This document shows positions 7,460 through 58,065 of a DNA stretch of 64,000 bases, piece by piece. Position 1 is the stretch's first letter, and each line of letters begins with the position of its first letter. The notes under the pieces are model-generated. The model was not told where the DNA came from. It searched no databases and saw nothing but the letters and a program-made list of their open reading frames with translations. Source of the stretch: Linderina pennispora (Eukaryota; Kickxellomycota; Kickxellomycetes; Kickxellales; Kickxellaceae); NCBI RefSeq assembly GCF_002104995.1, contig NW_024468250.1:744001-808000 (forward strand). Reading direction: 5' to 3'. The translations under genes were made by a program, and so were the position numbers.

Positions 7460-7806
7460 TAGTGTGAAAAGCGAGTTTTTGAAGAGGAGTAGGGAAGAAA
7501 TACAGCTTCGGGCAATAATAACTGCCAAGTCACACTTTTCACACGTATCCATCATTGTCCACATTTCCCTAATCCTACTCCACCATCCACAATACTCGAC
7601 CTCACTCATTTACACAGGTCGCATAAATCTAATATGCATCAGAATAGCTGGTATAATCAAGATGTTGCTGCACTGCGAAACAGCTCATATACTGAAGTTG
7701 CGCAGTATTTGCCTGTACACGAAGATATTTAATACTACCCTTACTTCACAACAACCACATACAAAAATCACATACGTGTTGATAATACATGTAGCCAAGA
7801 TGCCTC
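7460..7806. promoter_or_regulatory. Upstream region of F-box copy B, with family-conserved block
   Basis: At about 7550-7640 the minus strand carries the block found upstream of all four F-box copies (around TTGTGGATGGTGGAGTAGGA followed by TTAGGGAAAT). It sits about 100-170 bp before the start codon and is more conserved than expected for a neutral spacer, although recent duplication alone could explain it. The rest separates this promoter from the SIW14-like stop codon. Confidence 0.45.
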
Positions 7807-27184: not shown

Positions 27185-27827
27185 ATGAAGATCGCCTTTG
27201 CTCTTGCCATCTGCCGCCCTTGCTGCCGCTATGCCCCAGCCGACTCATCCCACACACCACCTGCGCACTATGACAGATGGTGAGGGTGAGACTCTGCTGA
27301 TCGACGAGGCCAACGAAAACCTGGGCGTATTCATTGCCGGGTACGACGGCATTGACGGTATCTACGACAAGCATAATGTTGACACTGCGTCGGGCACCAT
27401 GACCTGGGCCGACATCCATGACGGCGTCTACGCAGTAATCGACCTCGCCCACCCGAACCACCACACAGTGTTCAACTCTGCTGGATCTCCTATTGAGACT
27501 GCGAGCTACGCGCTGTCCTCGGCTCCGTACAAGACCGAGCCCACACACCACTTGCGCACCTTCACTAACCACAAGAGCGAGACACTGCTTATTGACTATG
27601 CTGTCACTGATGCTGCCGTCCTCGAGATTGGCGTTGAGGGCATCGACGGTATTTATGATGCTGACGATGCCGAGCCGCACTCAGGTACCGACACCTGGAT
27701 CAACGACTATGATGGCGTTATGGCTGTCATCGATTACGCGCATCCCAACTTTTATACCGTCTTTGACACCGACGGCAAGCCCATTGAGACTATCAGCTAC
27801 CCGCTGCCAACTCGCACCCATGCCTAA
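27185..27827 (+). CDS. Secreted protein of two tandem ~88-residue repeats (one frameshift in the signal peptide)
   Basis: ATG at 27185 begins MKIAFAL. A one-base frame jump near 27200-27210 joins it to PSAALAAAMPQP, giving a convincing signal peptide. The mature part (frame to 27827) is a direct duplication. Each unit starts PTHHLRT, then has ETLLID, GIDGIYD, SGT-TW, DGV-AVID, AHPN, TVF and PIET-SY. The two units are clearly homologous but diverged, with no cysteines in the repeats. The protein is acidic and small (about 210 residues). I recognise no known family; beta-rich repetition suggests a compact beta-fold. It could act at the cell surface or as a secreted effector-like protein. A TATA-like box lies 81 bp upstream. 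Confidence 0.65.
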
Positions 27828-28514
27828 ACAAGCCAATTCCTGTTTAATCTCTTGGGTATAAACACGCCATTATGAACACCACAGATTTATATCAGCAATG
27901 TAGTTATCCAATATATATCACCCTTGCGTGGTTCTCGGATCGCCGAAAAACTGCAGTTTGTATAAATCAATACTCGGCAGAGGTATTTAAAGAGATATAC
28001 AAGATTGACATTAATACACCACAATTCAGTAGTATCATGTCTACATAGAGACGATTTGCAAACAGCTATACTACTGATATACCGTGTGTATAGTTGAGTT
28101 AAATGTCAATGAAACTGGCTTTCATTTCCTTGTAGTCCCTATACACGAATGTTGTAGAGGACTAGAAGCTACTTCCAAGTAGAGATCAAACCCATCTTGG
28201 ACCCAGCCGCGGGGCAGGAGAATCCATCTGGTACAGGCGAGCCAAATGCGGAAACTTTAGCCAAACTTCAAAGAAACATGACCAGTTATACACATTTAGA
28301 TTGATGTATCCTGATACTATCAACAGTTCTAATGGGTATTAAATTTATGCAACCCGTGTCAATATGTGAGGTCGGGTATTGCGGATGGTAAAGTAGGGTT
28401 AGGGAAATGCTGACAAAGATTGACAAACCCATGCCAAGTGTAAGTTGACAACTGTTGCTGACAAGAGCCGTATTTCTTTTCCGCTCCTCCTCACAGACCA
28501 ATTTCTTCACACTA
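27828..28514. other. Intergenic; 3' part is the conserved 5' flank of F-box copy C
   Basis: 27830-28300 is AT-rich with nothing recognisable. At about 28335-28450 it carries the block shared by all four F-box units (TATGCAACCCGTGTCAATAT, then GGATGGTAAAGTAGGGTTAG), which marks the left edge of the plus-strand duplicated segment. Confidence 0.5.
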
Positions 28515-30252
28515 ATGGCGAACTGGGACAACATTGAGACCATATCTCCTTCATCGAGTTGCTGTCATATATGGCAACAGTATTCGCCTGCGTAGTCCGG
28601 ATGTTACTGACATCTATATTTCATATCTCCAGCTGAACCAAGTCTGCCAACACTGGAGAGACACTATAAAAAAGAGCCTCTACACTACCGCGATCATATT
28701 GTGCCACAGACCAACAGCTGATCAACTGCTTCTATATGGCAATACCTCTCATTCAGACCAACTAACATCCAGGGGTATATACCTTGTAGCCACATCACCA
28801 CAACCTATTTTATGGAGAGCAAACATCCCGCATATTGTGCAATCAAAAAACAGCAACTATACTCAGAGATTGATTATCTCATCTCGAGACTGTACCATCG
28901 ATTATTCCTCTCTTGGAGACATCCTCGAAACATTTGGATTCAGTACTGTCGAATGGCTTAGATTGAAAACAATACGTTTTATTGGAGACCTCCTTGAGGC
29001 AGAGCAGGATTCGGACGCCAAACCCCCAATGGCCGACGATGTCAGAATACGACTATCACAGACCTCGCAATATTTTATTCAGCGCCTCTCCCATGTGAAG
29101 CATTTAAAACACAGAACATCCGGATATCTATTGAAGAATCCGCCTGCATTCCCGCTTGGTGATGTGTTGAATTTTTACTTTCCACGGCTACAAACAATAT
29201 CTTTACCAGACTTTACTCTTCCAGAAATGAGCCATACATACTTCTCTTCATTCCTCACCAGGCTGTATCTTCACATCAACAGTGAGAGTGCTGAGCGTAT
29301 CCCTAGGATCTTTGCACCCTCACTCGAGTATCTGAGCCTATATTATCCTGACACTTCACATTCATGGCACATCTTCAGAGGCAGCCTGCCTGGATCTGTT
29401 ATCTTCGAAAACCTCACGGTGCTTGAAATCTATCATAATCCCGAGATATCTGAGTCAATAGAAGAATCAGACACATATTTCCCTTCCATATCGTTTCCAA
29501 AAGCTGGAAAATTTGCAATTAGGCTGGCATCCATTCAATGACACCAAAACCCTCGTTTTATTCAAGGACGCGCCAATACAGTCTGCCACCTTTCGTTGAT
29601 ATGGTTGATAGATTCCATTTCTCTGCGATAACCACCTTCAGAGATGTTCAAAATCTTTTTATTGTCGCCAGTACCTGGCAAAATAGTGTACATGACGAAG
29701 CTGCGGCGTCTGTTGCAAAGGATCTTTTCAGCAAACCGTTCTCTACCTCCACCGCTGAAGTACGTGTTCAGACGAGCATACCGGTCCCACTCCCTGATAT
29801 GATTCTGTGGACAAAGTTAGAAAAGCTATGTCTCCAATTCCCCAGTATATCTCTCCAATCTTACTCATATTCTCCCTCAGCTTCCTCGTCTACGCTGGCT
29901 TTTCGTCGGGGCCATATACAACACTGGAAATAACCTTGAAAATACAGAATCGGCACCCATTTGGAGCAGCACCCTTACTCAGCTTATCCTATTCTCAAGC
30001 ATTGTGGATATACCAACGGTTCCTTCTCTTAAGGCAATGAGCACTTTGGTATCTGGATTACCCTCCCTCCTCAAGCTGGCTGTTCCAGACGATATGTTAT
30101 CTACAGTAGAAGATGTACTTTCTGAACGCGGTGTTTCCCAGGAACCAATCGAAAAGGCGCTTCAAGTTGTTGGATACTTTCCAACAACAGCAGGGTTTTA
30201 TCTTCGAGATGGCATTTCTTACACCAATAATCAAGGCAACCGAATTTTATAA
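28515..30252 (+). pseudogene. F-box-like/LRR-like protein, copy C (three +1 frame disruptions)
   Basis: Homologous over its whole length to copies A, B and D, but split into three reading segments. The ATG at 28515 (MANW) is followed by an extra base at about 28528. The long segment 28534-29541 carries LQLNQVCQHWRDTIKKSLY. A second extra base lies in the AAAA run at 29499-29502 and a third in the CCCC run at 29840-29843. The end is in frame again from about 30004 to the stop at 30252 (YTNNQGNRIL). All three lesions are single insertions in or next to short runs; no other inactivating change is visible. It is therefore either a very young pseudogene or an intact gene with sequencing errors. 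Confidence 0.7.
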
Positions 30253-30794
30253 TATATCTGGGTGAAGTGGCTGTGGCAATAAATGCTGCATTGTTCAAAC
30301 ATAATATTATGCTTGTTGCTATGTGCATGTTCGAATAAGAAAAGAATTGCTGAGCAATTACCCAACTTGTATTTAGGGTAAACACTAACACATCCGCACA
30401 GTTATTGGCTAATTGCATGCGATAATTGACAGAAAGGCTCCTGTTATCCTCCACCGCCAATTGTATCTTGACGTCCATATCCACACTCATGTGCGCTTGG
30501 CCGACCGTACCATGCCTCGCACCCGCTAGAGACAAAGGATAAACACCCGTATGAATGTTAACACTCTTCTAGCTAGTAGTACAGCGGTACCTTGATTAAA
30601 CCAGAATCGCTAGAGGATATTAGATTTATGCAACCCGTGTCAATATATGAGGTCAGGTATTGTGGATGGTAAAGTAGGATTAGGGAGATTTTGACAAGGA
30701 GAGACATGTCCAAGATAAATGCGGGTTGTCAACCACTGTTAACAGATACTGCATTTATTTTCCACTCTTCCTCACAACCTCGTTTTTCACGCTA
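30253..30794. repeat. Duplicated intergenic spacer between F-box copies C and D
   Basis: Inverted counterpart of the A/B spacer (5265-5755). It shows the 3' flank of copy C (ATATATCTGGGTGAAGTGGC), the ACCATGCCTCGCACCCGC block at about 30510, the GTTAACACTCTTCTAGCTAG block, and then the conserved 5' flank of copy D (TATGCAACCCGTGTCAATAT at about 30630, GGTAAAGTAGGATTAGGGAG at about 30668). Confidence 0.6.
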
Positions 30795-32528
30795 ATGGCG
30801 AACTGGGCAACACTGAGACCATATATTCTTCTGCGAACTGTCAATATACTTGACAATAGTATTGACCTGAGCAGTTCAGATGATGTCGACATCTATACTT
30901 CATTCCTCGAGCTTAACCAGGTTTGCCAACACTGGAGAGACACTATAAAAGAGAGCCTCTACACTACCGCAATTATCTTGTGCCACAAACTAACAGCTGA
31001 CCAAATGCTTCTATATGGCAACCCGTCTGATTCTAACCAACTTGCATCCAGAGGCATATATCTCGCAGCCTCATCACCACACCCTATTCTATGGAGAACA
31101 AACATCTCGAATATCGTGCGATCAAAAAACAGCAACTACACTCAGCAACTTCTTATCTCATTTCGAGACTGTACCATCGATTTTCCCTCTCTTGGAGATA
31201 TCCTCGAAATATTTGGATTCAGCACTGTCGAATGGCTTAGATTGAAAACAATACGTTTTATTGGAGACCTCCTTGAGGCAGAGCAGGCTTCGGACACCAA
31301 ACTCCCAATAGCTGACGATATCAGTACACGGCTGTTACAAACTTCGCAATATTTTATAACACATATCCCTGATTTGAAGCATTTGATACATGGTGCATCC
31401 AGCTATCCACTGAAGAATTCGCCAGTATTCCCACTTGGTGATATGTTAAACTTTTACTTACCACAGCTGCGAACTATAGATTTGGTCGATTATACACTTC
31501 CACAACTCGATCACACATACTTCTCTTCATTCCTCACTATACTGTATCTTCACATCAACAGTGAGAGTGCTGAGCATATCCCTAGAATTTTTGCACCCTC
31601 ATTGGTGATATTGGGGCTATATTATTCTGCCACCGCGCATTCATGGCACATCTTTAGAGACGGTCTGCCTGGGTCGGTTATCTTCGAAAACCTTACGAAG
31701 CTTGAAATTTATCACTATCCCAAAATATCTGAGTCAACAGATGAATCTGATACATACCTTCCTTCTATATCGTTTCCAAAGCTGAAGGATATGCGTTTAG
31801 ATTACTATCCACTCAAAGATTCGAACACCCTCGCTTTATTCAAGGACGCGCCAATACAGACTGCGATTATCTGTGACGTTGTTGATAAATTCCAACTCTC
31901 TGTGATAACCACCTTCAGAGATGTTCAGACTCTACGTATTTCCATAAGAAGCTGGCCAGATAAAGTGCATGACGAAGCTGCGGCGTCTGTTGCAAAGGAT
32001 CTTTTCAGCAAATCGTTCTCTACTTCCACCGCTGAAATATTTATTGACACAAGCCTACCAATTCCATTCCCTGATACGATTCTGTGGACAAGACTTGAGA
32101 GGCTGTATCTCAACTTCCCTGTATATCTTTCCGATCTCATCCACATTCTCCCTCAGCTTCATCATCTGCGCTGTCTTCTTGCCGGGGCCATATACAACAC
32201 TGGAAATGGCATAGAGAATACAGAATCAGCACCCATTTGGAGCACCACCCTCACTCAAGTTGTCCTATTCTCAAGCATTGTGGATATACCAACGATTCCT
32301 TCTCTTGAGGCAATGTGTATTTTGGTGTCTGGCCTACCTTCTCTTCTCAAGCTTGTTGTTCCAGACGATATGTTATTTACGGTAAAAGATGCACTTTCTG
32401 AACACATCATTTCTCGAGAATCTAGCGAAGGGGCACCTCAGGTTGTTGGATATCTTCCAACAAGAACGATATTGTATCTTCGAAATGGCATTCCTTTTAC
32501 CGATAATCAAGGCAACCGAATTTCATAA
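30795..32528 (+). CDS. F-box-like/LRR-like protein, copy D
   Basis: A 577-residue intact copy, identical in length to copy A. It starts MANWATLRPYILLRTVNIL, with the F-box-like segment ending LELNQVCQHWRDTIKESLY, then the leucine-rich body and the end GIPFTDNQGNRIS. Differences from the other copies are scattered through the leucine-rich part, while the N-terminus stays nearly fixed. That is the pattern expected if the N-terminus binds a constant partner (SKP1) and the body a variable one; this is inference. The in-frame extension up to 30726 has a non-ATG head and is not conserved as protein. Confidence 0.75.
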   Translation: MANWATLRPYILLRTVNILDNSIDLSSSDDVDIYTSFLELNQVCQHWRDTIKESLYTTAIILCHKLTADQMLLYGNPSDSNQLASRGIYLAASSPHPILWRTNISNIVRSKNSNYTQQLLISFRDCTIDFPSLGDILEIFGFSTVEWLRLKTIRFIGDLLEAEQASDTKLPIADDISTRLLQTSQYFITHIPDLKHLIHGASSYPLKNSPVFPLGDMLNFYLPQLRTIDLVDYTLPQLDHTYFSSFLTILYLHINSESAEHIPRIFAPSLVILGLYYSATAHSWHIFRDGLPGSVIFENLTKLEIYHYPKISESTDESDTYLPSISFPKLKDMRLDYYPLKDSNTLALFKDAPIQTAIICDVVDKFQLSVITTFRDVQTLRISIRSWPDKVHDEAAASVAKDLFSKSFSTSTAEIFIDTSLPIPFPDTILWTRLERLYLNFPVYLSDLIHILPQLHHLRCLLAGAIYNTGNGIENTESAPIWSTTLTQVVLFSSIVDIPTIPSLEAMCILVSGLPSLLKLVVPDDMLFTVKDALSEHIISRESSEGAPQVVGYLPTRTILYLRNGIPFTDNQGNRIS

Positions 32529-34195: not shown

Positions 34196-35406
34196 ATGGC
34201 CATGGTACCGGAGACAGCGCATTGCTGGATTTGCGGGGTGTTTGTGGAGGGTATTGGCGACCTCTACAGCTCCGTGGAGTTGAAGACGTGGAAGGAGAAG
34301 ATGCCCGAGGGCTGCGACCCCGCCAAGTGTGAGCACGGTAAGAGTTTTTTACTCGGGCTGGACCAGCTTCCTATTTTTGCTGGCAATCAGGCCCGCGTTC
34401 TAGAATGGCAGAGAAAAGCATGCAAAAAATGCAGCGGCCTTGATTTTCCTCTTGATGTTTATGGATTGTAGACGTCAGCATCTTCCGTATCTGCGCCAGC
34501 GAAATGTACACCGAGCAGATACGCTTCCTGAATGTGTACAGCGGGGTCAGCCCGCGCAACCACGGCTGCTACACCGACGGCCCGGGCGGCCTGGTGTTCA
34601 TCGACGACGACCCTGTGTTTGCCGAGCACGAGCTCAGCATCATGTGTGCGAGCGAGATGACCGAGGAGTACAACAAGCCGCTGGCCATGAGCGTGGGCGA
34701 GGCGGCAAATGAAGTGACCGACATTCTTGTTGTCGTGGTCCACGATATGTGCCTGGAGATGCTGACGGCAGAGCTCGACCGGCAAAGGATTCCGTGGACA
34801 TACCGCGGGATTTTTGCGAATGCATGCGACAGCGGCAGGCATGTCATGGATCTGGACGTCGACGTTCCGGGGCTGAAGCGCAGCGAGACCGACAAGGTCA
34901 AGGAAATCCTGCTCAACGACGAAGAGTACAATGTGTCGGACCTGTGGATTATCTCGAGCCCCAAGTACGCGCCGGCGCCAGTCTATCTACAGCCCCACGA
35001 GAACCCGCGGGAGGTATTCAAGACCGTCGACTCGCAGGAGAAGTCGCAGCTGCTGAGCCTACCGCCAGAGATGCTGGAGCTGGTTATGAGCTACCTGGAC
35101 GAGGAGTCGCTGATCAGCATGGGCCTGTCGTGCAAGAAGGTGGCCAATATGCCTGGGTTTTGGCGGTGGATATTCCTTGCTACATTCAAAATCGCCAGCG
35201 CCAAGGGCTGGATCGACTGGCACCAGTACTACCGGCGCGCGCTGCGGTTCCGCCTGAACTTTATGAGCCGCGCGCGCATCACCGGCGTTGTGCGGCACAA
35301 CATCGCCCAGTATGACTCGTGGTCGCGCCAGCTCAGCACCGAGGCGCTGGAGTTTGCCGATGGGTTCCTGGTACACTACGGCAAGACGATCGAAGACTAC
35401 TGCTGA
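34196..35406 (+). CDS. F-box protein (two exons)
   Basis: A 358-residue protein after splicing. Exon 1 is 34196-34337 (MAMVPETAHCWICG and onward). The intron is 34338-34471 (134 bp, GTAAGA donor, TTGTAG acceptor). Exon 2 is 34472-35406 and resumes as DVSIFRICASEMYTEQIRF. The N-terminus has a CWICG element. A conserved-looking block HGCYTDGPGGLVFIDDDPVF lies at about residues 78-97. The F-box is near residues 241-282 (LLSLPPEMLELVMSYLDEES, then MGLSCKKVANMPGFWRW). The start is chosen for good context and because the frame fits the splice. It is unrelated in sequence to the repeated F-box-like copies A-D. Predicted SCF substrate adaptor; substrate unknown. Confidence 0.8.
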
Positions 35407-36648: not shown

Positions 36649-37243
36649 CCTGCCTGAAACAGCTAGGGATTTGGTGGAGGCTCTAGGGAGTAGTGTACGT
36701 TGTAGAACAGATACCAGCGACAAGAGGTCCATTGCCACCTGAAGCTCGCTTACCCGTGTCGGCAAGCTGGCTCGCACCTGCAATTAGAGGTACGAACCGT
36801 CCACATTGCCGTTGCTAGATGAATTGGCCCAGCTGTGCTTGTGCTTTGTGAAAGCTGGAAAGGAGATGCGCTGCCAATTAATGCGTGGCATCCTATGCCT
36901 TGCGACCATCATCGACAGCCACAGGCATAAGCGCATGCCTAGTGCCCACAGAGGATCTAATCGCATATGGTAATCTACCGATCGACCCTGGCCGGGTTTC
37001 AATTGGAGCCTTTTTGCTGTGGACCGCCCGCTATTTACCCAATAGCCCACCATTGAAGTGGGAGACCTCGCTGCTACCCATTGTGAAATTAAAAATTCAC
37101 ACAATTACACCGCCAATACGGCACAATAAGACCACACGGGTGCAACCGATGTGTAGACCCAGAGTATACTTCAAAAATGTATCCGCCCCATCTTCGAGAA
37201 GGCTACACATCGCCTTGTCCGCCAGGAGAGGGCTCAGCCCAAC
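36649..37243. other. Intergenic upstream of microgene 1
   Basis: About 600 bp. Contains an AT-rich stretch with TTGTGAAATTAAAAATTCAC at about 37080, with inverted-repeat character, and the word CACACGGGTG at 37135. No other ORF is supported. Confidence 0.35.
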
Positions 37244-37250
37244 TATAAAA
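37244..37250 (+). promoter_or_regulatory. TATA box of microgene 1
   Basis: TATAAAA, 118 bp upstream of the ATG at 37362. Same box and similar distance as at the other four array members. Confidence 0.6.
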
Positions 37251-37361
37251 GACCTGCCCACAGGACTCAGAGGGAGGGTCGAGGTACAATCGACAAGCCC
37301 ATCTTCTCCTTTATACCAGAATCCACCACCTCCCCTTTGCCAGCACAGCAAGAACAATACC

Positions 37362-37457
37362 ATGAACGCCTACGTCGCCATCGCAACCGTTGCCGTCCTC
37401 TTCGCTGCTACCATCTCTGCAGCTCAGGCCCAGGTCGTCGGTGGTGGTCCCTGGTAA
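37362..37457 (+). CDS. Secreted micropeptide precursor 1 (mature tail QVVGGGPW)
   Basis: A 31-residue ORF. MNAYVAIATVAVLFAATIS forms an almost complete signal peptide, followed by AAQA, a good Ala-x-Ala signal-peptidase site, and QVVGGGPW before TAA. Cleavage after AQA would release an octapeptide with N-terminal Gln, able to cyclise to pyroglutamate, and a C-terminal aromatic residue. There is no Kex2 (KR) site and no CaaX box, so it is not a standard alpha- or a-factor precursor. It is the first of five same-strand relatives. Role unknown; a secreted signal, surface-active or defensive peptide are the options. The protein-level conservation among copies is the main evidence that it is a gene. 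Confidence 0.72.
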   Translation: MNAYVAIATVAVLFAATISAAQAQVVGGGPW

Positions 37458-38146
37458 ATGCCACGGCCACAGCCCTGTTATTAGCTCTGTATATTAGCGA
37501 ATACGACCGTATCTACCCAATATAATCCTATACCTTAAAGCCTAAGGCTTCTGTGTCAGCAGTTTATCAATTGGAACTATGCTCCCAAGCAGTACCAACT
37601 GTTGCTAGGTAATGACATTGTGTTTTGCATAAACATTTGCTGCCAATAGTCTGCAGGATGCTGTGTGTCGTTTAAGCCATCTTCAGGACTATCACAGCAG
37701 AAATGAATTTTTGGTCGAGCAGAGCTGTTCAGCGCATGTCAACACATGTATTGGAAATGCAAGCGTGTAGGATTGGTTGGCGTTCCCTACAAGTGTGGGC
37801 TCTACGCACACTATTCTACACACATCTCTTTCACATTTGGCCCGCCAAGATAGGGCTAACCTTCAGTATGAGGGGGAAGAGCGCAGCTGGTGTTTTTGAA
37901 GGACAGCGATTGGCGCTGAAAATCATGATGGCCCCGGTTATTACAGCCCAATTGCTCAGCAGATACCGTTCATACAATAAAACTTGGGTGCTATTGTAGA
38001 ATTACAATTACAATTCAGATAACAAACAGCACTATGTGCGCAATTGTACAGCTCAACTTGAATCGTGCGTGCTATTACATCGTTAGAGACTCCCTCCGTA
38101 GCCTTAGACGCTTGTAGAGGCTGGGTCAGCATGATCTTGTTCCAGC
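37458..38146. other. Spacer between microgenes 1 and 2
   Basis: About 690 bp, AT-rich. No ORF is supported. It has CAATTG words at about 37951 and 38041 upstream of copy 2; similar words (CAATTG, CCAATTG) precede copies 3 and 5. Confidence 0.35.
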
Positions 38147-38153
38147 TATAAAA
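38147..38153 (+). promoter_or_regulatory. TATA box of microgene 2
   Basis: TATAAAA, 101 bp upstream of the ATG at 38248, in the word CCAGCTATAAAAGCAGAA. Confidence 0.6.
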
Positions 38154-38247
38154 GCAGAATAGACTTGTTGTTTGTTGGAGTAGAGCATCAGGCAGCAACA
38201 GCAACAGCAATAGCAGCAGTTTCTAGCCCCTCTACAAGCACTTTCTC

Positions 38248-38340
38248 ATGGCTTCCACTGCTATCGCTACTGTCGCTGTCCTCTTCGCTGCCGCCATCTC
38301 TGCTGCTCAGGCTCAGGTTGTCGGCGGTGGTAGCTGGTAA
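38248..38340 (+). CDS. Secreted micropeptide precursor 2 (mature tail QVVGGGSW)
   Basis: A 30-residue ORF, MASTAIATVAVLFAAAISAA, then QAQVVGGGSW and TAA. It is one residue shorter than copy 1 near the N-terminus, with Pro to Ser before the terminal Trp. The signal peptide and AQA cleavage site are preserved while flanking DNA is unrelated, indicating selection on the peptide. Many differences from copy 1 are third-position changes (for example GTC GGT GGT versus GTC GGC GGT). Its leader contains a run of CAG/CAA triplets at about 38193-38218. Confidence 0.72.
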   Translation: MASTAIATVAVLFAAAISAAQAQVVGGGSW

Positions 38341-39076
38341 ACATTACTGCGATTACCTCATCAGGACAAGAGCGCTTCATGTATACTAGACCGTTGACAA
38401 TATATATCTTAGTACATCATTATCTCACTCGACAAGCCATGTTATCCATGTTTGCGGAATGGTGTATAGGTACACATGTTTCTTTCACAGCTGGTTGCAG
38501 TGTGGTGCAAAAGCTACTTTCAAAGGATGATGCCAGCTAATGACCATTCGTGTGCATGCTGCTTGGGATGTAAAGCGAGTTATCAGTATTTACTAGGCGG
38601 CACTCGTGTTGGACATGATGTTAACTTTTAATCTTGCTTGAGGGACTAATTCAGCAGCCCAAGCCAAGCACCCTGGAATACTTGTTTGCAAAAGCATTTC
38701 TGTTTGCTCCCAGTGCCAGTTGGTGCAAATGCAGCTCCTTTGTGGTACCCGGTATTGCCCATCTGACCATCCCCAAGTATCTCATTGAAATCATGACAGA
38801 TGAATAGTAAGCGGCTGTGATGATAGAAATTCCAGGGATCAGCACAGAAAACCAGCACGCTCCAGCTCCGATTCTTGATCACAATTGCCAATTTGGCAAT
38901 ACAAGGTCGCTTATTGTGAAATAGACGGTGCCCACATCAGCGCAATAGCGACTATTTAGACAGCGCTTGCTTCAATAAACCCCAATTGTGGCCCGTGGTC
39001 TCATTGGGGCTTTTACAACGAGCGGTCACTGTTGCAAACACTAGGTGCTGTAGGCCGTGGTAGCGCCCCTTTCTCA
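38341..39076. other. Spacer between microgenes 2 and 3
   Basis: About 740 bp, AT-rich. No gene is supported. CCCCAATTGTGG at about 38981 lies about 95 bp before the TATA box of copy 3. Confidence 0.35.
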
Positions 39077-39083
39077 TATAAAA
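39077..39083 (+). promoter_or_regulatory. TATA box of microgene 3
   Basis: TATAAAA, 132 bp upstream of the ATG at 39209, the longest distance in the set. Confidence 0.6.
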
Positions 39084-39208
39084 AGCCACGTCGCTGCCAC
39101 TCCAAGAAACTGGCAAAACCACATAACCATCCCACTGCACTTTGAAGAAACTCACTCTCTAGAAACAACCTCAGGGTCTCTCTGTCACTCACGCTCCAAG
39201 AAACCAAA

Positions 39209-39304
39209 ATGAACACCTCTATCGCTCTCCCTACTGTCGTCGTTCTCGTCGTTGCCGCCATTTCTGCTGCGCAGGCGCAGGTTGTCGGCGGTGGCCCATT
39301 CTAA
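39209..39304 (+). CDS. Secreted micropeptide precursor 3 (mature tail QVVGGGPF)
   Basis: A 31-residue ORF, MNTSIALPTVVVLVVAAISA, then AQAQVVGGGPF and TAA. The hydrophobic core is more diverged than in copies 1 and 2 (Val-rich), but the cleavage site and the QVVGGG core are identical. The terminal Trp is replaced by Phe, so the C-terminus stays aromatic. This pattern, a free core of the signal peptide and a fixed tail, is what a processed peptide should show. Confidence 0.72.
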   Translation: MNTSIALPTVVVLVVAAISAAQAQVVGGGPF

Positions 39305-39658
39305 ATACTTTACAAACGATTTGATACGGTGCACCGCACACAGCTGTACATTAAAACTATATTTGAAGTCCAAAGTACATAGCATGGTGATGGCACATTT
39401 GTGCGACATATGCATGTCAATGATGGCAAAGCAAGCCAGATTAAACCGACTTGTAGCGTCTCAGTGACAGGTAGTGGGAGGATAGATAGCAATCCTTGAC
39501 CAGATGCAGTGCAAGAAGGGGTGTTGCAGAATGAGGTCAGCAGCGGTGCCAGTTCTGATTATATGATTGAAAACGGTGTTGAAGATATGACCAAATGCAC
39601 GAGTACAGCTGTTTCTCACTCGAGAGGGCAAACTCTATGCAGGGGTTGACACATCATC

Positions 39659-39665
39659 TATAAAA
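39659..39665 (+). promoter_or_regulatory. TATA box of microgene 4
   Basis: TATAAAA, 106 bp upstream of the ATG at 39765, even though the coding part is interrupted. Confidence 0.55.
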
Positions 39666-39764
39666 AGGGTGTGAGTGCTGAGTGTATATGAAGGAAAAGG
39701 TTCCGTTCAGGAAAGATTTCTTCAAGCCCCTCAAACTCCTGTTCACACAATCACGATATTTACC

Positions 39765-39857
39765 ATGAGCGCTTCTATCACTGCCGCATATATTGTTGTC
39801 CTCTTTGCTGCCACTATCTCCGCTGCTCAGGCCTAGATTGTTGGCGGTGCCTGGTGA
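39765..39857 (+). pseudogene. Secreted micropeptide 4, interrupted by a stop at the predicted cleavage site
   Basis: ATG at 39765 reads MSASITAAYIVVLFAATISA, then AQA, and then TAG (39834-39836) where the other copies have CAG for the first residue of the mature peptide. After it the frame continues IVGGAW and TGA. The signal peptide and promoter are intact, so only a 23-residue leader would be made unless the TAG is read through. Most likely a recent pseudogene by a single C-to-T change; the downstream part has also lost one Gly and the Pro, consistent with relaxed selection. Confidence 0.65.
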
Positions 39858-40394
39858 GCACGATCGCTGCCGTTTTTTGCATTCCACTCTTATACATGCC
39901 ATCTTACTATGGGCTGGCATTATAAGACAGGTATTCTAAGCCTGTCAAGCTAAACATAGCCCTGTTATGGACGGTGTCGCCATGTAACCATGAGGAAGAA
40001 ATGGACAGGTGTGGTCTCAAGCATTGTCGATTTGCCACCTGTGCAATTACACCACCCATGCTGTTTTTTTTTTGGCAAGACATAGGGCGTATGCGTTGCG
40101 AGCGGAAAACAGAGATCTACTCGAGAAAACCAATCATGCTCCAGCCTCAAAATCGCACAATTGCCCAATCCCATCCCTTTTTAAATTGCAAGCGCAGCCG
40201 AATGGTTGTTGCGAGAGACGTAATTGCAGCACGGAGAGAGCAATTGGCAACGGTGCAGAATAGCCTGATTTTCAATAGCCGGCAACAAGGGCATTCTGGA
40301 TGCCATTGAGATGTGGGCGATTGAAATTTTAATAAAAAGCAGGCCAGCAGTCTGACATGCATGCTGTGCACGCGGAAAGCGTCTGTTGCGTGGG
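39858..40394. other. Spacer between microgenes 4 and 5
   Basis: About 540 bp. GCACAATTGCCCAATCCC lies at about 40154. A T-run sits at 40064-40072. No gene is supported; opposing open frames are chance. Confidence 0.35.
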
Positions 40395-40401
40395 CATAAA
40401 A
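40395..40401 (+). promoter_or_regulatory. TATA-like box of microgene relic 5
   Basis: CATAAAA, one base from the TATAAAA of the other members, 120 bp upstream of the position homologous to their ATG (40515). Confidence 0.5.
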
Positions 40402-40514
40402 GGCCAAATTTGTGGCAGACACAAAAGTCCAAAACCAGCTACAGATACGGCGGTCTTCAGCAGCAACAGACCAAGCCTTTTGCCATTCGCAGGCATCCCT
40501 GGTCGTTTACAGGA

Positions 40515-40610
40515 AGGAATGCCTCTGCCGTCATCACAACTGCCGCTGTCTCCCTCGTCTCGACCACCACTGCTGCTCAGGCGCAGGTTGCTGGTGGTAG
40601 GATGTGGTGA
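40515..40610 (+). pseudogene. Secreted micropeptide 5 relic (start codon ATG replaced by AGG)
   Basis: A homologous frame of exactly 32 codons. AGG stands where copy 1 has ATG, then NASAVITTAAVSLVSTTT, AAQAQVAGGRMW and TGA. The Ala-Gln-Ala cleavage site and the terminal Trp persist, but the core GGG is GGR and the start is lost. The frame is open upstream to about 40386, so a longer N-terminally extended or spliced product cannot be excluded; such a product would lose the signal peptide position. Best read as an older pseudogene of the array. Confidence 0.55.
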
Positions 40611-41293: not shown

Positions 41294-42231
41294 TCAGTCT
41301 AAATCTTTGAACTCGGCATCCTGAACACGCCTCTTTGCGTGTTTTTCAGACCGGCCAGCTGTCTGTGAATCGTTGAGGACATCCAGTTCCAGCTCGACAA
41401 TCTGGTCGTTCTCGGTTTTGGCCAAAAGCCACACTTTTGCCTCTTTCACGTCATCCTCGACCTGGCCAGTGACACGGAGAAAGACGTGTGTCGCCTGGTT
41501 GTCGGCAAACACTGGGAAAATCGCTTCAATATCGGTCCTTTGTTTGCCAGACGAGGAGCTGACGGACGATGACGACGAGAACTCGAGTGGCTCGCCCAGA
41601 GAGACAGCTGATCCGGCGCCAATCAGATCCCGTACCTGGGGATCAACCTCGTAGGCTGCCAGAACCGCGTCTTCGGCCAGGCCTCGCAGCAGGGTGGCTG
41701 AGGGGCGTGTGCTGCTGAAGATGGAGAAGGGCGCCAGCCGCTCGATCGTCTGCTTGATGTACGACACGACGTCGCCCAGTGGGCCCTTGCCGCTGCTGCC
41801 GTGCATGCCGCTCTCGTGCAGCACGCGGTTTATCTCCCGCGCAATCATCAGCATCCGGAAGCCGCGGTAGAATGCAAAGCCGATGCCGCCCAGAATAACG
41901 AGGCGGATCATCGGCCATGCCACCACGACAAGCGCAATTCCCCGGCTGTATACAGCGCCGGCTTGAGCCACGGCACGGGGCTGTTGTTGGGCTTATAGTG
42001 CGGTCGCCGGTCAAACGGGTCGCGCTGGTCGCTATAGTACGTGCGCTTCTGGCCCAGATCGGCGGGTGCCCAGGGCTTGCCAGCAAGCACTACCGGTCTT
42101 GGCACTGGTGCGAGTGCCGACCGGCAATGCAGACTGGCAAACCTACGCACGAATACTGAGCGCGACATACGCGCAATTGCGGGCGACAGCCCAATTCGAG
42201 GCAGGGGTCGACAGCACGTTGCAGTAAGCAT
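41294..42231 (-). CDS. Mitochondrial inner-membrane protein, Coa1/Tim21-like (one frameshift)
   Basis: The N-terminal segment (ATG at 42231, or more likely 42168: MSRSVFVRRFASLHCRSALA) is an Arg/Ser-rich amphipathic presequence. The frame breaks at the CCCC run at 41940-41943 (plus-strand bases). Removing one base joins WLKPALYTAG to IALVVVAWPMIRLVILGGIG, a single membrane helix. The soluble C-terminal part (about 190 residues) has VDPQVRDLIG followed by LGEPLEF and the strands THVFLRVTGQ and AKVWLLAKTE, resembling the small Coa1/Tim21-type domain of complex IV assembly or import factors. That family assignment is tentative; the mitochondrial membrane location is better supported. It ends in a basic tail. 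Confidence 0.55.
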
Positions 42232-46022: not shown

Positions 46023-46511
46023 TCACGTCTTGGCAAACATCTGCGTCCAATACAGACTGTGTTCGCCGAAGCCAACAATATTATAGTCGCCTAGCATGTT
46101 GCTGAGGTGCATTGGGCTGTGAATCCAAGCGGTCATGACCTCACCAACACTCTGCTGGTCGTGTGCGACATTTTCAGCAACCCCACGCCATTCAATGCCG
46201 GCTACACTGGCCCTGGCACCGAGAGTGCCGGCTGGGTCATCGTGCGTCATCATTCCCGAGGAAAACTGGTAATCCGAGTGTCTCTGGGCAGCCGCGTTGA
46301 GACGGTAGTCCATGATCACCGGAGACTTGCCATGCTTTGCTCGCTCCTGGTTTAGAATGGCGAGCATCTGGCCGCGCCAATTAGAGGCAAGGCGGCTAGA
46401 ACCTTCTGGTGCCGGTGCTTTTGCTGCATAGGCGCTGGCTTTCTCGCCAAGCACCTGGTCAAGCAAAGATACAAGCAGGGCTAGAATAAACAAATGCCTG
46501 ATATATGTCAT
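46023..46511 (-). CDS. Secreted CAP/SCP-domain protein 1 (PR-1-like)
   Basis: A 162-residue protein. Signal peptide MTYIRHLFILALLVSLLDQV, then a CAP domain: ILNQERAKHG, RLNAAAQRHSDYQ (first His), MTHDDPAG, GVAENVAHDQ (Glu), SPMHLSNMLG (second His) and YNIVGFGEHSLYWTQMF. All CAP signature positions are present. CAP proteins are secreted; in fungi (Pry proteins) they bind sterols or fatty acids. The upstream in-frame extension from 46637 is not needed. It is the tandem paralogue of the gene at 47055-47570, both on the minus strand. Confidence 0.85.
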   Translation of the reverse strand: MTYIRHLFILALLVSLLDQVLGEKASAYAAKAPAPEGSSRLASNWRGQMLAILNQERAKHGKSPVIMDYRLNAAAQRHSDYQFSSGMMTHDDPAGTLGARASVAGIEWRGVAENVAHDQQSVGEVMTAWIHSPMHLSNMLGDYNIVGFGEHSLYWTQMFAKT

Positions 46512-47054
46512 TGTCTGTTGACTGTTTCTCCAAGTTGGTAGCACTGTAGGAAAACTGAAATGCATAATGCCAGTTTTAAAAATGGATGGGGGGCAAGAGA
46601 CTAGCATATATATTGACATCCAACTACTTTTAGGCATGAATCCTGCTGAAAGCTAGAAATGCTATTCTGCCTATTGTGAGGCCGAAGCAGCCAATAACTG
46701 TGAATGAACATCTGTATATTTGCATTTCTCTTAATCAGCACTGGTAAATGGGAAACAGCATTGGTGTTCAGTATCCGAGGTGAGGAGATGTCAAGTGCAC
46801 TTGCCGTAGAACCGTGATTGCTGAATACACAAGAAATCTGAATAAACTCGAAGGCTTTCTATGGCTGATTTGTATATTGAGAGGAAAATATATTGCCAAA
46901 AGGATAGATAGCTGTTGAATAGAGGTATAGGTAGTGCTAGGTGAGAGCAGAATAGTGCTGATACGCAGCCTGGTCGGCAAAGTTGCAGAAATCCAAGGTG
47001 AAAACCAATCTAGCACCAAATGCGGTTGCCAGGTCGCCAAATGAGGCTGGAAAA
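46512..47054. other. Spacer between the CAP genes
   Basis: About 540 bp, AT-rich: upstream region of CAP gene 1 and 3' flank of CAP gene 2. No gene is supported. Confidence 0.4.
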
Positions 47055-47570
47055 CTAGGAAATCAGCGCAAATATCTGCGTCCAATACAGCCCCTGCTCT
47101 CCAAACCCTGCGACATTGAAGTTGCCGAGGATATTTGCCAGATGATGCGGACTGTTAACCCACGAGTCCATTGCCTCCGCAGGGGTTTTCTGGTTCCAGG
47201 CAACATTCTCTCCGGCATTCGTCCACCTGAGACCCGTTGCGGTGATTCTGTCGCCAAGAGATCCGGCCGGGTCTTGGTGCGTCATAGTCTGTACCGAGTA
47301 CTGGTAGTTTGAGTGGTTCTGTGCAGCGGCGTTGAGCAGATCGTTGGCGATCAGAGCTGGCAGACTGCGCATTGCACGCTGGCTATTCACCATACGCAGC
47401 ATATCGCTACGCCAGTCTCCAGCTAAGAACATGTCTCTGGACGAACCAACATGCTTGATAGGATGTGGCTTCACATCCCTGGAGCCACGATCCTCTGGGA
47501 GTCCAGCGTAGAGCCCAGTAATGGAAGGGGCAAATGAAGCAAGAAGAAGTTGGTTGATTAAACGGACCAT
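47055..47570 (-). CDS. Secreted CAP/SCP-domain protein 2 (PR-1-like)
   Basis: A 171-residue paralogue of the preceding gene. Weak-looking signal peptide MVRLINQLLLASFAPSITGL, a spacer region of about 25 residues, then the CAP domain: MVNSQRAMRS, LLNAAAQNHSNYQ, MTHQDPAGSLGDRI, NAGENVAWNQ, SPHHLANILG and FNVAGFGEQGLYWTQIF. The His and Glu cavity residues are kept. It differs from copy 1 outside the motifs, so the duplication is not recent. Probably a secreted lipid-binding protein; expression conditions unknown. Confidence 0.84.
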   Translation of the reverse strand: MVRLINQLLLASFAPSITGLYAGLPEDRGSRDVKPHPIKHVGSSRDMFLAGDWRSDMLRMVNSQRAMRSLPALIANDLLNAAAQNHSNYQYSVQTMTHQDPAGSLGDRITATGLRWTNAGENVAWNQKTPAEAMDSWVNSPHHLANILGNFNVAGFGEQGLYWTQIFALIS

Positions 47571-53062: not shown

Positions 53063-56000
53063 ATGACCTTGTCACGAAGCCAAACCAAGCAGGAGAAAGA
53101 AATTAATATCCAGGTCGTTGTCCGCTGCAGGTAAGCACATTCAAATAATGCCACCATGCTGCGCCAGTCAGACAGGCAGAGCACGTGAAGCTAATCGTGT
53201 TGGTTAATGCTGTAGGGGGCGCAATGACCGGGAACGCAGAGAGAGCAGCGTGCCTGCCATGGATATAGCACCGCTGAGCGGCAGAGAAATCACACTGCGC
53301 AATGGGGTAAACGTCCGGAATTACACGTTTGACAGGGTGTTTGGCCCGCAAGCCGACCAGAAAGAGATATATGATAATGTCGTACAGCCCATTCTGGACG
53401 AGGTGCTTCAGGGCTACAACTGCACAATCTTCGCCTACGGACAGACTGGGACAGGAAAGACCTACACGATGGAAGGCGATTTGGACATGCAGATGCCATC
53501 ATTTGCAGACAGCAACCAGAGGCTGATAACTAGCGGCCTGGGCAGCATCAGGATTCCCACCAATGCCGGCATTATCCCCCGCACGCTGTACCAGCTGTTC
53601 AAGGCCATCGGCAATGATCCCGCCAGCATGGTGACAGTATCGTATATGGAGCTGTACAACGAGGAGTTCCGTGATCTGTTTGTGGACACGAACGCCAAAG
53701 GCGAGCCGAACGGGCCGCACATCCAGGTCTTCGACACTGGAACCAAGGGCAACATTCAGTTCCAGGGCCTCGAGGAGAAGCGGGTGCAGACGGCCGAGCA
53801 GGCGATTGCACTAATGCGCGATGGCTCGCTGCGACGCCGAGTGGCAGCAACCAGGTGCAATGACACCAGCTCGCGCTCACACGCAATCTTCACAATCAAC
53901 GTGCTTGTTCGCGAATCGGCACTGGGCTCTGACGGCGACTACGTGCTCAAGCGCGGAAAGCTCAATCTGGTTGATCTTGCAGGCAGCGAGAATATTGGAC
54001 GCAGCGGAGCCGAGAACATGCGCGCACGCGAGGCCGGCCAGATCAACCAGTCGCTGCTGACCCTGGGGCGGGTTATCACTTGCCTGGTCGAGAAGCACCA
54101 GCACATTCCATACCGCGACAGCAAGCTGACACGCGTTCTCAAGGACTCGCTGGGCGGAAAGACGCGCACGTGCCTGATTGCCACAGTGAGTCCATCCAAG
54201 GCGAGCATCGAGGAGACGATCAAGACACTGGACTATGCGGGCAAGGCGAAGAGCATCAAGAATAAGCCGGCAGCCAACCGCACAGTGTCCAAGGCCGACA
54301 TTATCATCGAGCTGACAGGGAAGATTAACCGTCTGGAAGATGACCTCAACGCGGCGCGCGACAAAATGGGCTTCTATGTGTCGAAGGAAACGTACGATCA
54401 GCTGGTAGAGGATTCAAAGTCGGCAAAGATGCGGGGCGAGTCTTGGCAGAACGAGAGGGTGCTCATGGAGGACAACCTGAATCAGCTGAATGATGAGAAC
54501 CGCAAGCTCAAGGAAAAATACGAGGAAATGGAGGACAAGCTGAGCGAGGCCAGGAACCAGCTGGTGCAGACGCAGCAGGATCTGGAGAATGCCCGTCAGG
54601 ACTACAAAAACCAGATTGTTGTGTCCAAGGCCCATGCTATGCACGAAGAGGAGCTGGATGAAGCCGCGCGTACACTGCACAGCTCGCTCAGCGCTGCGAC
54701 CAGGGACTCGGCGAAGCTCCATGCAAAGATCTCGCGCATGCAGGAACGCGAGCAGCTGAATCTCAACGCGGTAGCCAGGATTGGCAGTCTGGTAGGTGAG
54801 GAGACATCGCGGGCGCTGTCGTCAGTCGCCGAATACAGCAAGCAGGCTGGAGCGCAAACCCAGCAGCTGCTGGCTACGCTGCATGACCGTGTCGGCGAGC
54901 AGTTTGAGACTGAAATCAGGACGAAGCTGAGCGAAGCAGAGTCGCGACTTGCAGCCCATCTGGCTGAGCTGGCTGAGAAGGCTGAGGAATCTGGCGTGGA
55001 GCAGCGTGATACATGCGTAGCGTCAATCGAGTCGGTCTCGGAGCTTGTCGCGCAGCTCAAGGTTACGATGGCAATCTGGTCAAAAAGTGTGTTGGGGCTT
55101 GCGAACAAAGCACCTTGCGCATGGAGCAGTCCTCTCAGTGCCAGCTGGACGGCATCAATAGCGCAGCAGTCGGCGTCCGGTCGCTGCTCGACAAGTGCGT
55201 AGCGGACTCAGCTGCGGTTATGAAGGAGGCTCAGCTGAGCACCGAGAAGGACATTGCTGCAATGCACCGAGAGATCGAGGAGCTGCGGGTGCAGAACGCA
55301 GAGTATGTGCGCAGCTTTACCCAGAAAATCGAGTCGCTGCGCAGCGACTCGGAGTCATCTGACGCCAAGCTACTGGAGACCATCACCACGATGATTTCCG
55401 AGCGCCGCAGCCTCCAGGATGGCGTCCTGGCCGAGTCAATTGAATCTGCACAAAAACAGGAGACCGACACTAGTACGCGCACTGAAAACTTACTCAAGCG
55501 CACCCGCAGCATTGGGTCGGAGATTGATTTGCTGGCGCAGGGCGTGCTGGCCAAGGTTTCGCGCACACAGGCTGATGTCGACGAGCGGGTGGCCGCCGAT
55601 GTTAAGGCAGCTAGTGACCTGGTGTCGTCTATGCAGGCGGAGGTGAAGTCTCATAGCCAGAACATTACAGTGCTGTTTGCAGAAGCCCCTGCTGCCACCT
55701 CGACTACACATGGCCGGGTTGTGCAGGCCGAAGGTCGTTTGAAGCAGTCGGTAGAGCAGATGCACGCCGCACTGATTGCTGCTGTTGCAGAGAGCCGTCA
55801 GCTGGCCGTTGCCTCCCATGGCCGCACTACCCAGACAGTCGGCCAGGCGATTGGAACTTGGCACAATGCGCGTGAGGAGCTGGGTGAGCTAGCTGGCACA
55901 CAGGCCAAAGGAGCGCGACCACTTCGGCAGTGCACTCAGCAATGGCATCACTGCTATTGCCGGTGTCGTAGAGCGTGAGACCAAGTCAGGCATCCTGCCT

Positions 56001-56582
56001 ACCCCAGCCACTGCGGGAACGCCACGGGCTACTCGGTATCAGTCAGTGTCGAGCTGGAACCGCACCATTCCTGACCTGGATATCATCCGCAAACTCGATG
56101 ACCCGAATGTGCCAGCCAACCGGGAGATGCTGGTGTGGACGAGTATCCCGGTATACCCCAGCTCTTCGACTGGTGAAAACAGCACCAGTGGCAGCACTCC
56201 ATTCGGTACCAATGGATACAAGAGTCCCTCGTCGCGGTACAGCAAGTCGCCTGTCAGAGACAGATCGCCCTTGAGGGCAGTGTCGCCTGCAAGGTCCAAC
56301 TCGCCAGCAAGGACGAAGACTGAGACGAAAGTTGTGCTGAAGCGCGCATCCGACAAGACATCGTCGCCGACGCCAGATACTGTGCCCCAGCGGCCAGCTC
56401 AGCGTCCCAAGACCCAGGGCCCCCTCGACGGAGACGAGAAGGGTGTAGCGAAAGTGGTCTCTAAATCGGCCGCAATAGAAGCACCGACTGCGGTGGAGAC
56501 ACAGCAGACGGGGATCCCGGTTCCAGGGACAATACCCTCGCGCCTGCCTATGCCGCGGAGATCCCGCTATACTCGTGGATAG
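53063..56582 (+). CDS. Kinesin-5 (BimC/Cut7/Eg5-type) spindle motor, spliced, with two frame errors
   Basis: A plus-end motor that slides antiparallel microtubules to build bipolar spindles. Exon 1 is 53063-53130. The intron is 53131-53215 (GTAAGC donor, TGTAG acceptor). Exon 2 restores VVVRCRGRNDRERRESS. The motor has GQTGTGKT (residues 98-105), NDTSSRSHAIF and LVDLAGSENIGRSG. A long coiled coil follows. The tail has TPRATRYQSVSSWNRTIP, the BimC box region phosphorylated by Cdk1 in this family, then a basic SP-rich end. Frame changes: one near 55060 (one base missing) and an extra A in the AAA at 55907-55909, after which KERDHFGSALSNG continues to the stop at 56580. The conserved tail in frame shows the gene is real and probably intact. 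Confidence 0.88.
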
Positions 56583-56886
56583 CATTGCCTTTTTATAGTT
56601 TGTCCACCCAATACCATTGCTTTCTAGTTTGCTACTCTCTTTGTATATGGTGGTTGGCCGAGACTTTATTATGACACAGGATGTCGCAAAGAGCGTATAG
56701 GCTCATCCTTTGTAGAGAAGAATAGAGTTCAAATACCTGGATAGTCACAGCAGAGTGCCATATCGGGGGTTCTGGTTTATAAAGGGATTTGAGGGCACAG
56801 CTCTTTTTCGTATGCTGTGCTCACACACAAATAAATACCTGCTATCCTATATCTCCGTATACACAGCGCTGGACAGCTCTACAACC
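56583..56886. promoter_or_regulatory. Intergenic with TATA box
   Basis: TATAAAG at 56778-56784, 109 bp before the ATG at 56887 (120 bp before the ATG at 56898), matching the core-promoter spacing seen at the microgene array. Confidence 0.45.
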
Positions 56887-57266
56887 ATGGCAGTACATGA
56901 ATCCCGCAAAAGAATCGAGCAGTTCCAAGGACAGGGTTCTGGCAAGCAGCATTTCAAGTCTTGACAAAATGATGGCCGATTATAGGGGGGTTGGTGCGGT
57001 TCTAAAGGGCTATATGCAAGCTGCCCACACTGACGGACTCTGACAGCTCGCAGTTTATGGCGAAGGCAAAAGAGTTGCAAGCGGTCATCAAAGACATAAA
57101 CATTTCAGTCCGCAGCATGTACTATGCTGCAGACACAAACTCGATAAAAGACCTTGAGGGCTTGCTCCTGGATTATGCACGCACGGCTTACGGAGAAGAG
57201 CACGAGGTCATTATCGGCGCAATGGAGATGGCGTTCGGCACAGTTAATGACATGCCGAAGGCATAG
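56887..57266 (+). CDS. Orphan small helical protein (frame jump)
   Basis: Segments in two frames: MNPAKESSSSKDRVLASSIS from 56898 through LDKMMADYRGVGAVLKGYMQ, then after an extra base near 57035 LTDSDSSQFMAKAKELQAVI to a stop at 57266 (ending MAFGTVNDMPKA). A better-context ATG at 56887 would need one more frame correction. The product of about 120 residues is all-helical in appearance, without signal or membrane segment. No family recognised. The TATA box upstream and coherent composition support a gene. Confidence 0.4.
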
Positions 57267-57521
57267 CAGAGTATTAGCTGCAGGAAGGATGTTTATATTT
57301 ATTTGCTTCCATTAATGAGAGGTTTCCCAGAGTGGTAGTTTGCCTAGAGCAATATCCTCCTGGCACTTTTAGTGAAAAGTAGCATTATCAGACATGGGTT
57401 TGTCAGGCATCCTAAATCGCCCGTGGATGTTGTCAGGTTCCAAGTCAATTATGAACACAATCACGAAGGGCAGTCATGCAAGAGCGTGATTATATTGTGC
57501 CCAATTGTACAGGAATTGGGC

Positions 57522-58065
57522 TTATGTGGTAAGGGTAAGGATGTATTTTGACAGAGTGAGCGTTTTATACAATAGAATAACAAGCACTAATAGCACTGAA
57601 GAATACTGAGGCGCCTTGACAGCGATTCCATGCCGTGGGGAGTTTGGCGAAGAAGCCTGGGGACGGTTTGATCCGGGCTGTCCATCCGTAGCCTTGCCAT
57701 TGAGCAAGTCGATCCGACCATGAACCTCGGCTAACCCTGTTTTCATATCGTTAAGAGCAGTGATGTTCTGGTTCACGGCAAAGTTTGCAATAAACATAGG
57801 GAAGAATCCGTTCTCAAAGAACTGGCGGCAATGGATCTCGCCGTCCTCATCAATGGAATAGACCGAATCACCATACGCCTTTGCAGCAAACCAACCCTTG
57901 GAACTGACCACAATGATGTAGCCGAAGCGGATCAGCGGGTCCACCGTATAGCTGATGGTCTGGACTGTGAGTTAGACGCCTCCAAGATGCCTTTGGATCA
58001 GTGGGACTCGTCTTGAAAAGGACAAAGAATGAATTGGCGGACAAGTTGCCGATGGAAAAATTCAT
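57522..58065 (-). CDS. Orphan protein with C-terminal membrane helix (frame jump)
   Basis: ATG at 58065 reads MNFSIGNLSANSFFVLFKTS. After a one-base jump near 57972 it continues LTVQTISYTVDPLIRFGYII, then VSSKGWFAAKAYGDSVYSID, and ends with a hydrophobic tail (SSVLLVLVILLYKTL) before the stop at 57522, suggesting a tail-anchored protein of about 180 residues. A CTAAC followed by TCACAG at the jump could alternatively be a branch point and splice acceptor, but no matching donor is evident. No family recognised. It is convergent with the preceding orphan. Confidence 0.42.

Follow-up and report, generated by a model that had tools for sequence, protein, structure and literature searches.

The 64-kb window analyzed here – positions 744001–808000 of contig C112, in a genome of 26.17 Mb and 222 contigs – contains an array of very small open reading frames (ORFs) that probably represents a real small gene family of the soil fungus Linderina pennispora. 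Each product would consist of a signal peptide and an octapeptide. The simplest role for the octapeptide would be that of an extracellular signal that works much as the fungal peptide Qsp1 does. The array is made up of three intact ORFs of 30–31 codons, one copy interrupted by a stop codon and one relic with no start codon, all in tandem on the + strand, and a further intact copy is found on contig C1. A chance origin is unlikely because of the copy on C1, the TATA boxes, an excess of synonymous change among the copies, and the presence of the array in a second haplotype. Directly secreted octapeptides are the best reading of the array, and the further step from octapeptides to signals is plausible.

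Structure of the array

A preliminary description of this DNA had reported five copies on one strand, and all five were located at the coordinates it gave (Table 1). Their starts are 886, 961, 556 and 750 bases apart. The array is flanked by an MMM1-domain ORF (ending at 36526) and by an ORF with no Pfam match (41294–41911). A family of 82-base repeats, in five copies, covers the array ORFs, while the remaining direct repeats are two-copy matches of 16–29 bases. The spacers had been described as unrelated, and a comparison of their DNA indeed gave no similarity between them at E ≤ 0.01.

Each gene is predicted to encode a signal peptide for the endoplasmic reticulum (ER) of ca. 19–23 residues ending in A-x-A, followed by the octapeptide QVVGGG(P/S)(W/F). 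This architecture was recognized by the A-x-A rule rather than by a dedicated predictor: a hydrophobic core, A-x-A, and a tail of eight residues. In the intact copies, the stop codon is two codons past GGG. With A-x-A immediately ahead of the unvarying Q-V-V-G-G-G, the junction is consistent with cleavage by signal peptidase. The three intact precursors of the window and the C1 copy contain neither K nor R, so that a dibasic site for Kex2 is absent, and each precursor has a single core. The intact precursors end in GPW, GSW or GPF and have no Cys, and so have no CaaX box; for the window precursors, both absences had been noted in the preliminary description.

Table 1. Copies of the micro-precursor gene and TATA boxes upstream of the array copies. 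Positions are those of the window unless a locus is named.
Feature	Position	Strand	Description
Copy 1	37362–37457 (including stop)	+	Intact micro-precursor, 31 aa, MNAYVAIATVAVLFAATISAAQAQVVGGGPW; predicted product QVVGGGPW
Copy 2	38248–38340	+	Intact micro-precursor, 30 aa, MASTAIATVAVLFAAAISAAQAQVVGGGSW; predicted product QVVGGGSW
Copy 3	39209–39304	+	Intact micro-precursor, 31 aa, MNTSIALPTVVVLVVAAISAAQAQVVGGGPF; predicted product QVVGGGPF
Copy 4	39765–39857	+	Broken: TAG at first tail codon in both haplotypes; frame continues IVGGAW
Copy 5	40515–40610	+	Relic: ATG absent in either haplotype; tail QVAGGRMW
C1 copy	L017:5293–5376		MNAYTAVLVIAAVAAAASA then QVVGGGPW; whole, MNAYTAVLVIAAVAAAASAQVVGGGPW then TAA
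TATAAA, copy 1	37244–37249	+	118 bases before ATG
TATAAA, copy 2	38147–38152	+	101 bases before ATG
TATAAA, copy 3	39077–39082	+	132 bases before ATG
TATAAA, copy 4	39659–39664	+	106 bases before ATG

An unlinked sixth copy

When the genome was searched with copy 3 as the query, the eighth and weakest match was a place on contig C1. The tail encoded there is identical to that of copy 1, but the signal sequence is different and shorter. The signal segment has four residues fewer than that of copy 1, and ASA replaces AQA before the presumed cut. The C1 copy has a TATA box of its own at –103. Its flanks have no DNA similarity to the array (E ≤ 0.01), and genome searches did not find it on a second contig. 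The C1 copy is an independent gene, with a diverged signal sequence and eight identical tail residues.

TATA boxes and a screen of short ORFs

Five of the six copies (copies 1–4 and the C1 copy) have TATAAA at –101 to –132, and there is none upstream of the relic, copy 5. The whole window has 37 TATAAA on both strands, or ca. 0.017 expected per 60-base stretch. The binomial probability of finding five in six is ca. 9e-9, an optimistic value since the 60-base stretch was picked after the sites were known.

Short ORFs were screened with criteria that were set after the array was known: an ATG-initiated ORF of 20–45 aa (nested starts counted), a hydrophobic core, a site of the A-x-A type close to its end, and a TATAAA between –145 and –80. 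Four of 502 ORFs in the window passed – all of the array copies that have an ATG – and none of 357 passed in the reversed window. Of the 874 ORFs in a further 30 loci (107,890 bases), only the C1 copy passed; these loci were not random, as they came from earlier searches, included the C1 locus and contained some haplotype pairs. When the TATA criterion was dropped, 36 of the 502 window ORFs and 41 of the 874 in the other loci passed, and therefore it is the TATA box that carries the discrimination of the screen.

Three 6-mers stand out in the six 450-base upstream sequences (window 36912–40514 and L017:4843–5292). ATTGTG/CACAAT is found 11 times, compared to 2.4 in shuffled sequences (P = 3.8e-5, which narrowly clears the 1% level set by the best 6-mer of a shuffled sequence); AATAGC is found 10 times, compared to 1.7 (P = 1e-5); and CAATTG is found 8 times, compared to 1.4, which fails the 5% level. 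The first two are possible shared regulatory sites, a lead rather than a result.

Sequence differences among copies and between haplotypes

Sequence differences among copies were assessed from the proportions of non-synonymous (pN) and synonymous (pS) differences by Nei-Gojobori counts; the counts are small and the pairs are not independent. In the tail and the preceding Ala, pN was 0–0.21 and pS was 0.27–0.80 across the six pairs of intact copies, unlike the ratio near one that the preliminary description had named as evidence against a peptide family. Between copy 1 and the C1 copy, this segment has two synonymous changes and no non-synonymous changes. The hydrophobic core had been described as variable, but its variation is not free: in the three array pairs, pN in the signal region (0.09–0.19) was also below pS (0.38–0.55).

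Among the copies, the share of synonymous change exceeds the neutral expectation. Between copies 1 and 2, 6 of 18 changes were non-synonymous (P = 0.0005), where ca. 73% would be expected under neutrality; between copies 1 and 3, 11 of 26 (P = 0.0009); and between copies 2 and 3, about 11 of 21 (P = 0.035).

The second haplotype of this region is found in contig C28 (29.6 kb), where the order of the five copies is unchanged. Mismatches between the haplotypes amount to 3–6% across the array as far as 40.5 kb and to 0–4% from there on. At 30–33.5 kb they reach 8–16%, far above the rest. In addition, the stretch at 53500–58000 aligns to C28 with small gaps and no mismatches, in surroundings with 1–3% mismatch.

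Within the tail and stop codon of the three intact copies, none of 81 bases differed between the haplotypes, compared to 167 of 3,631 spacer bases (binomial P = 0.022; Fisher two-sided P = 0.051). This contrast is suggestive only. Copy 1 has one difference between the haplotypes, a synonymous change in a third codon position. Copy 3 has two synonymous changes and one non-synonymous change, none of them in the tail. The changes in copy 2 all lie ahead of the tail, and one result is ARA before the tail in the second haplotype, with a single R in that precursor. The tail of the broken copy 4 is unchanged, with an additional TAG in the second haplotype, and the relic tail of copy 5 has two changes, giving QAAAGRMW.

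Searches for relatives

A pattern for the tail and stop codon, allowing up to 3 mismatches, was found in 8 places (4 in the reversed control), and 7 of these belong to the family: the three intact array copies in each of two haplotypes, and the C1 copy. The pattern QVVGGG was found in 11 places (6 in the reversed control), and the family again accounts for 7; the other four were read out, run on in unrelated frames, and were rejected as relatives. A degenerate pattern, AQ[VIM][VA]GG, was found in 33 places (8 in the reversed control), all of which were read. Eight belong to the family (the 7 intact copies over both haplotypes, and the relic), and the remaining 25 were rejected, as they lie in other frames and by eye lack the architecture.

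A literature search found no paper with QVVGGG as a word. In titles and the starts of abstracts, no genes of this kind were found beside Qsp1 and the surveys of Kex2-processed repeats discussed below.

Proposed mechanism

Each intact copy would be driven from its own TATA box, and the precursor of 27–31 residues would enter the ER. Entry is presumably post-translational, because a chain of this length would be finished before its signal leaves the ribosome. With AQA or ASA as the cleavage site, signal peptidase would free an octapeptide that reaches the medium with no processing by Kex2. Its N-terminal Gln may cyclize to pyroglutamate, and its C-terminal residue would be aromatic. The octapeptide would then most likely act as a signal between hyphae, of density, self or mating status, sensed perhaps after import by oligopeptide transporters. 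These are numerous in the genome: the oligopeptide transporter (OPT) family PF03169 has 46 matched stretches, of which 13 span nearly the whole profile. This number would allow import of the octapeptide, yet nutrition alone may explain it. Some of the 46 stretches, like some of the 52 matched by the trypsin family, are probably haplotype pairs.

A core that stays constant while the last residues differ from copy to copy is in keeping with an extracellular signal, as are the separate promoters of the copies and their turnover. We infer from the DNA that the genes are expressed, that the precursor is translocated and cut, that the octapeptide is secreted and forms pyroglutamate, and that it acts as a signal. 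A bolder proposal, which can be offered only tentatively, is that the family is a new class of eukaryotic gene for peptide signals, in which one cut by signal peptidase would make the finished hormone and the copies of an array would vary its last residues, perhaps with sensing after import by oligopeptide transporters.

The earlier proposal of a family of directly secreted oligopeptides thus stands in part. The tail identity of the C1 copy, the TATA boxes, the substitution patterns among copies and the second haplotype speak for it, but the changes within the intact ORFs between haplotypes do not. These and several other observations weigh against the secreted octapeptides. In total, the intact ORFs have 5 non-synonymous and 4 synonymous changes between the haplotypes; taken whole, they look unconstrained, with no sign of constraint. 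The signal region of copy 2 in the second haplotype has 4 non-synonymous changes and 1 synonymous change. The cleavage site was assigned by the A-x-A rule, and the N-terminal region of every intact precursor has no charged side chain; signal peptides with no charge near the N-terminus are unusual. A search of a protein collection (E ≤ 10) gave no homologue among 1,874 scored candidates or among the 8,000 proteins sharing the most words. ORFs of 27–31 aa are seldom called as genes, and so are seldom in protein collections. Finally, no match to the pheromone receptors STE2 and STE3 was found in the genome in a search made exon by exon, which also gave none in the control genomes.

Alternative explanations

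The array could instead encode a membrane microprotein – an uncleaved hydrophobic anchor of 27–31 residues whose tail is exposed at one membrane face or serves to bind a partner. The length suits a single span with a short tail, the hydrophobic core is also constrained among copies, and the N-terminal charge that would fix the orientation is missing. However, Ala is kept at –1 and –3 (AQA, ARA, ASA) before the invariant tail in the intact copies of both haplotypes and in the C1 copy, and these are the positions at which signal peptidase prefers Ala. The signal segment of the C1 copy, four residues shorter than that of copy 1, also speaks against an anchor. A membrane microprotein is unlikely, though it deserves consideration.

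It is improbable that the array is decaying or chance sequence with no product, a stretch of non-coding DNA that was duplicated and is open by accident. Two of the five array copies are broken, five of the nine haplotype changes in intact ORFs are non-synonymous, and the protein collection holds no homologue, all of which would fit this reading. Such a segment would not account for a C1 copy with an identical tail behind a different signal, for the TATA boxes or for the synonymous bias among copies; nor would it explain similarity that is confined to the ORFs, save for the two-copy matches of 16–29 bases.

If the ORFs were first exons of longer genes, splicing would skip the ORF stop and the mature protein would be encoded downstream. 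There are potential splice sites for this: GT spans the W codon and stop (TGGTAA or TGGTGA) in five of the six copies, and copies 1, 2, 3 and 5 also have CAG/GT at the codon that opens the tail. Two short translated matches were also found, one of 11 residues between the downstream side of the C1 copy and the upstream side of copy 1 (E = 0.002, in a tiny database of spacers), and one of 15 residues between the downstream sides of the C1 copy and copy 2 (E = 0.035). The better of the two sits in a non-equivalent position, and otherwise the downstream stretches have no DNA similarity (E ≤ 0.01) or translated similarity (E ≤ 0.05). Copy 3, which ends TTCTAAATAC, has no GT at its stop, and no consistent coding sequence is shared downstream, which makes splicing past the stop unlikely. 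Further, the next TATA box follows within 0.36–0.74 kb of copies 1, 2 and 3, and all four intact genes keep the eight-residue block, its aromatic end and the stop that follows. First exons are thus decidedly improbable.

The resemblance of VVGGGP to the start of mature trypsins, [IV][IV]GG, raises the question of whether the genes are truncated 5’ ends of trypsin genes, or encode a mimic that enters the trypsin activation pocket and modulates these enzymes. The genome has 52 stretches matching PF00089; three mature starts read IVGGSP, IIGGAP and IIGGHP, one reads VIGGGS, and the frame of copy 4 continues with IVGGAW. A start could be read in 22 of 26 stretches, some of them haplotype pairs (the other four were unreadable). 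In 21 of the 22, R stands directly before the start, mostly after a pro-region, and none of the 22 has the family signal or QVVGGG. Most lack Pro after GGx, and a likeness of about four residues is weak. The activation pocket takes a free Val or Ile N-terminus, but the signal peptidase product would begin with Gln, and no protease domain coding is shared downstream of the micro-gene tails. A trypsin origin or mimicry is very improbable.

Precursors of modified ribosomal peptides (RiPPs), with an octapeptide core cyclized or cross-linked by enzymes, are also highly unlikely: a short core with a terminal aromatic residue behind a signal peptide would suit them, but Kex2-flanked repeats are absent, none of the five Pfam-matched ORFs among the nine neighbors at 27–48 kb is a tailoring enzyme (four were unmatched), and UstYa PF11807 (DUF3328) gave no match in the genome, nor in the control genomes.

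Comparison with known peptide systems

Qsp1 of Cryptococcus neoformans is the nearest working model for the proposed secreted octapeptides. It is reported to be a peptide of 11 residues derived from a secreted pro-peptide and matured extracellularly by the serine protease Pqp1, and its action needs the oligopeptide transporter Opt1 (PMC7537855). A second report describes a peptide that contains Gly-Gly and ends in Pro-Trp, with a single Gly-to-Ala variant serving as the inactive control (PMC5959073). Both systems would have a short secreted fungal peptide with Gly-Gly and a Pro-Trp end, in an organism with oligopeptide transporters, which in Linderina are numerous. However, the Linderina octapeptide would be released by signal peptidase alone, and it has several copies with variant ends. 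The likeness – Gly-Gly and a Pro-Trp end – is too short for a claim of homology.

Other systems are similar in part. The a-factor-type lipopeptide pheromones have precursor genes that are very short and occur as several copies, with a CaaX end and export by a transporter; the Linderina genes are likewise short and multi-copy, but have a predicted signal peptide and no CaaX. Bacterial short hydrophobic peptides and sex pheromones are signals of 7–8 residues that come from tiny precursors and are imported by oligopeptide permease, and in the sex pheromones the active part is cut from the signal sequence. The Linderina system is eukaryotic, and here activity would reside in the tail behind the cut rather than in the signal sequence. 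The likeness to mature trypsins extends to the x-P that follows [IV][IV]GG in three of the starts read, but the micro-precursors have no protease domain or basic activation site, and have Gln in front. The insect adipokinetic hormones also have an N-terminal Gln and a Trp at position 8, but their Phe at position 4 and their Gly for amidation are missing here.

Peptide-based mutual recognition is poorly known in fungi outside the Dikarya. If the bolder proposal is correct, the family would be the first case noticed in the Kickxellales, as judged from titles and the starts of abstracts, of a peptide signal that is genetically encoded and secreted directly, and one missed by gene callers. The precursors, at 27–31 residues before cleavage, would be near the lower limit of the eukaryotic secretion pathway. 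Three defined octapeptides are open to direct synthesis and testing, and the combination of a TATA box with a micro-ORF that has a signal and A-x-A provides a search recipe for peptide genes missed by annotation. Two peptide surveys target Kex2-processed repeats (PMC7329392, PMC6339444), and therefore single-core precursors with no dibasic site would probably escape them. Repeat proteins of this kind are reported in Zoopagomycota. They and the alpha-factor-type pheromones share with the Linderina genes secreted oligopeptides and a signal-peptide precursor, but the Linderina precursors lack internal repeats, a pro-region and a dibasic site, and their repeats are separate genes.

Surrounding genes

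Of the nine ORFs at 27–48 kb that were scanned with Pfam, those matched were an MMM1 gene, an F-box gene, an adenosine deaminase (editase) gene and two CAP-domain genes. The CAP-domain genes (46023–46637 and 47055–47570, both on the – strand) lie beyond the adenosine deaminase gene relative to the array. An F-box gene is found close to each micro-gene locus, at 34504–35403 (+) in the window and at L017:5530–6567 (–), and the two may be there simply because F-box genes are common in the L. pennispora genome. Ca. 3 kb upstream of the C1 copy, the frame at L017:1188–2036 (–) has a weak match to NDC10_II (E = 2.9e-5, under the curated cut-off) and may represent a recombinase-like mobile element.

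A family of proteins of ca. 577–617 aa is encoded in two clusters of opposite orientation, at 3531–7609 (–) and 28372–32528 (+); the two members that were scanned have no Pfam match. The ORF at 27231–27827 (+), also Pfam-unmatched, encodes 198 aa with two similar units (THHLRT...LLID...GIDGIYD...AHPN). The mannosyltransferase at 18038–20350 matches a Linderina pennispora protein with 100% identity across 99% of its length, and the closest proteins beyond that species are from Martensiomyces and Coemansia.

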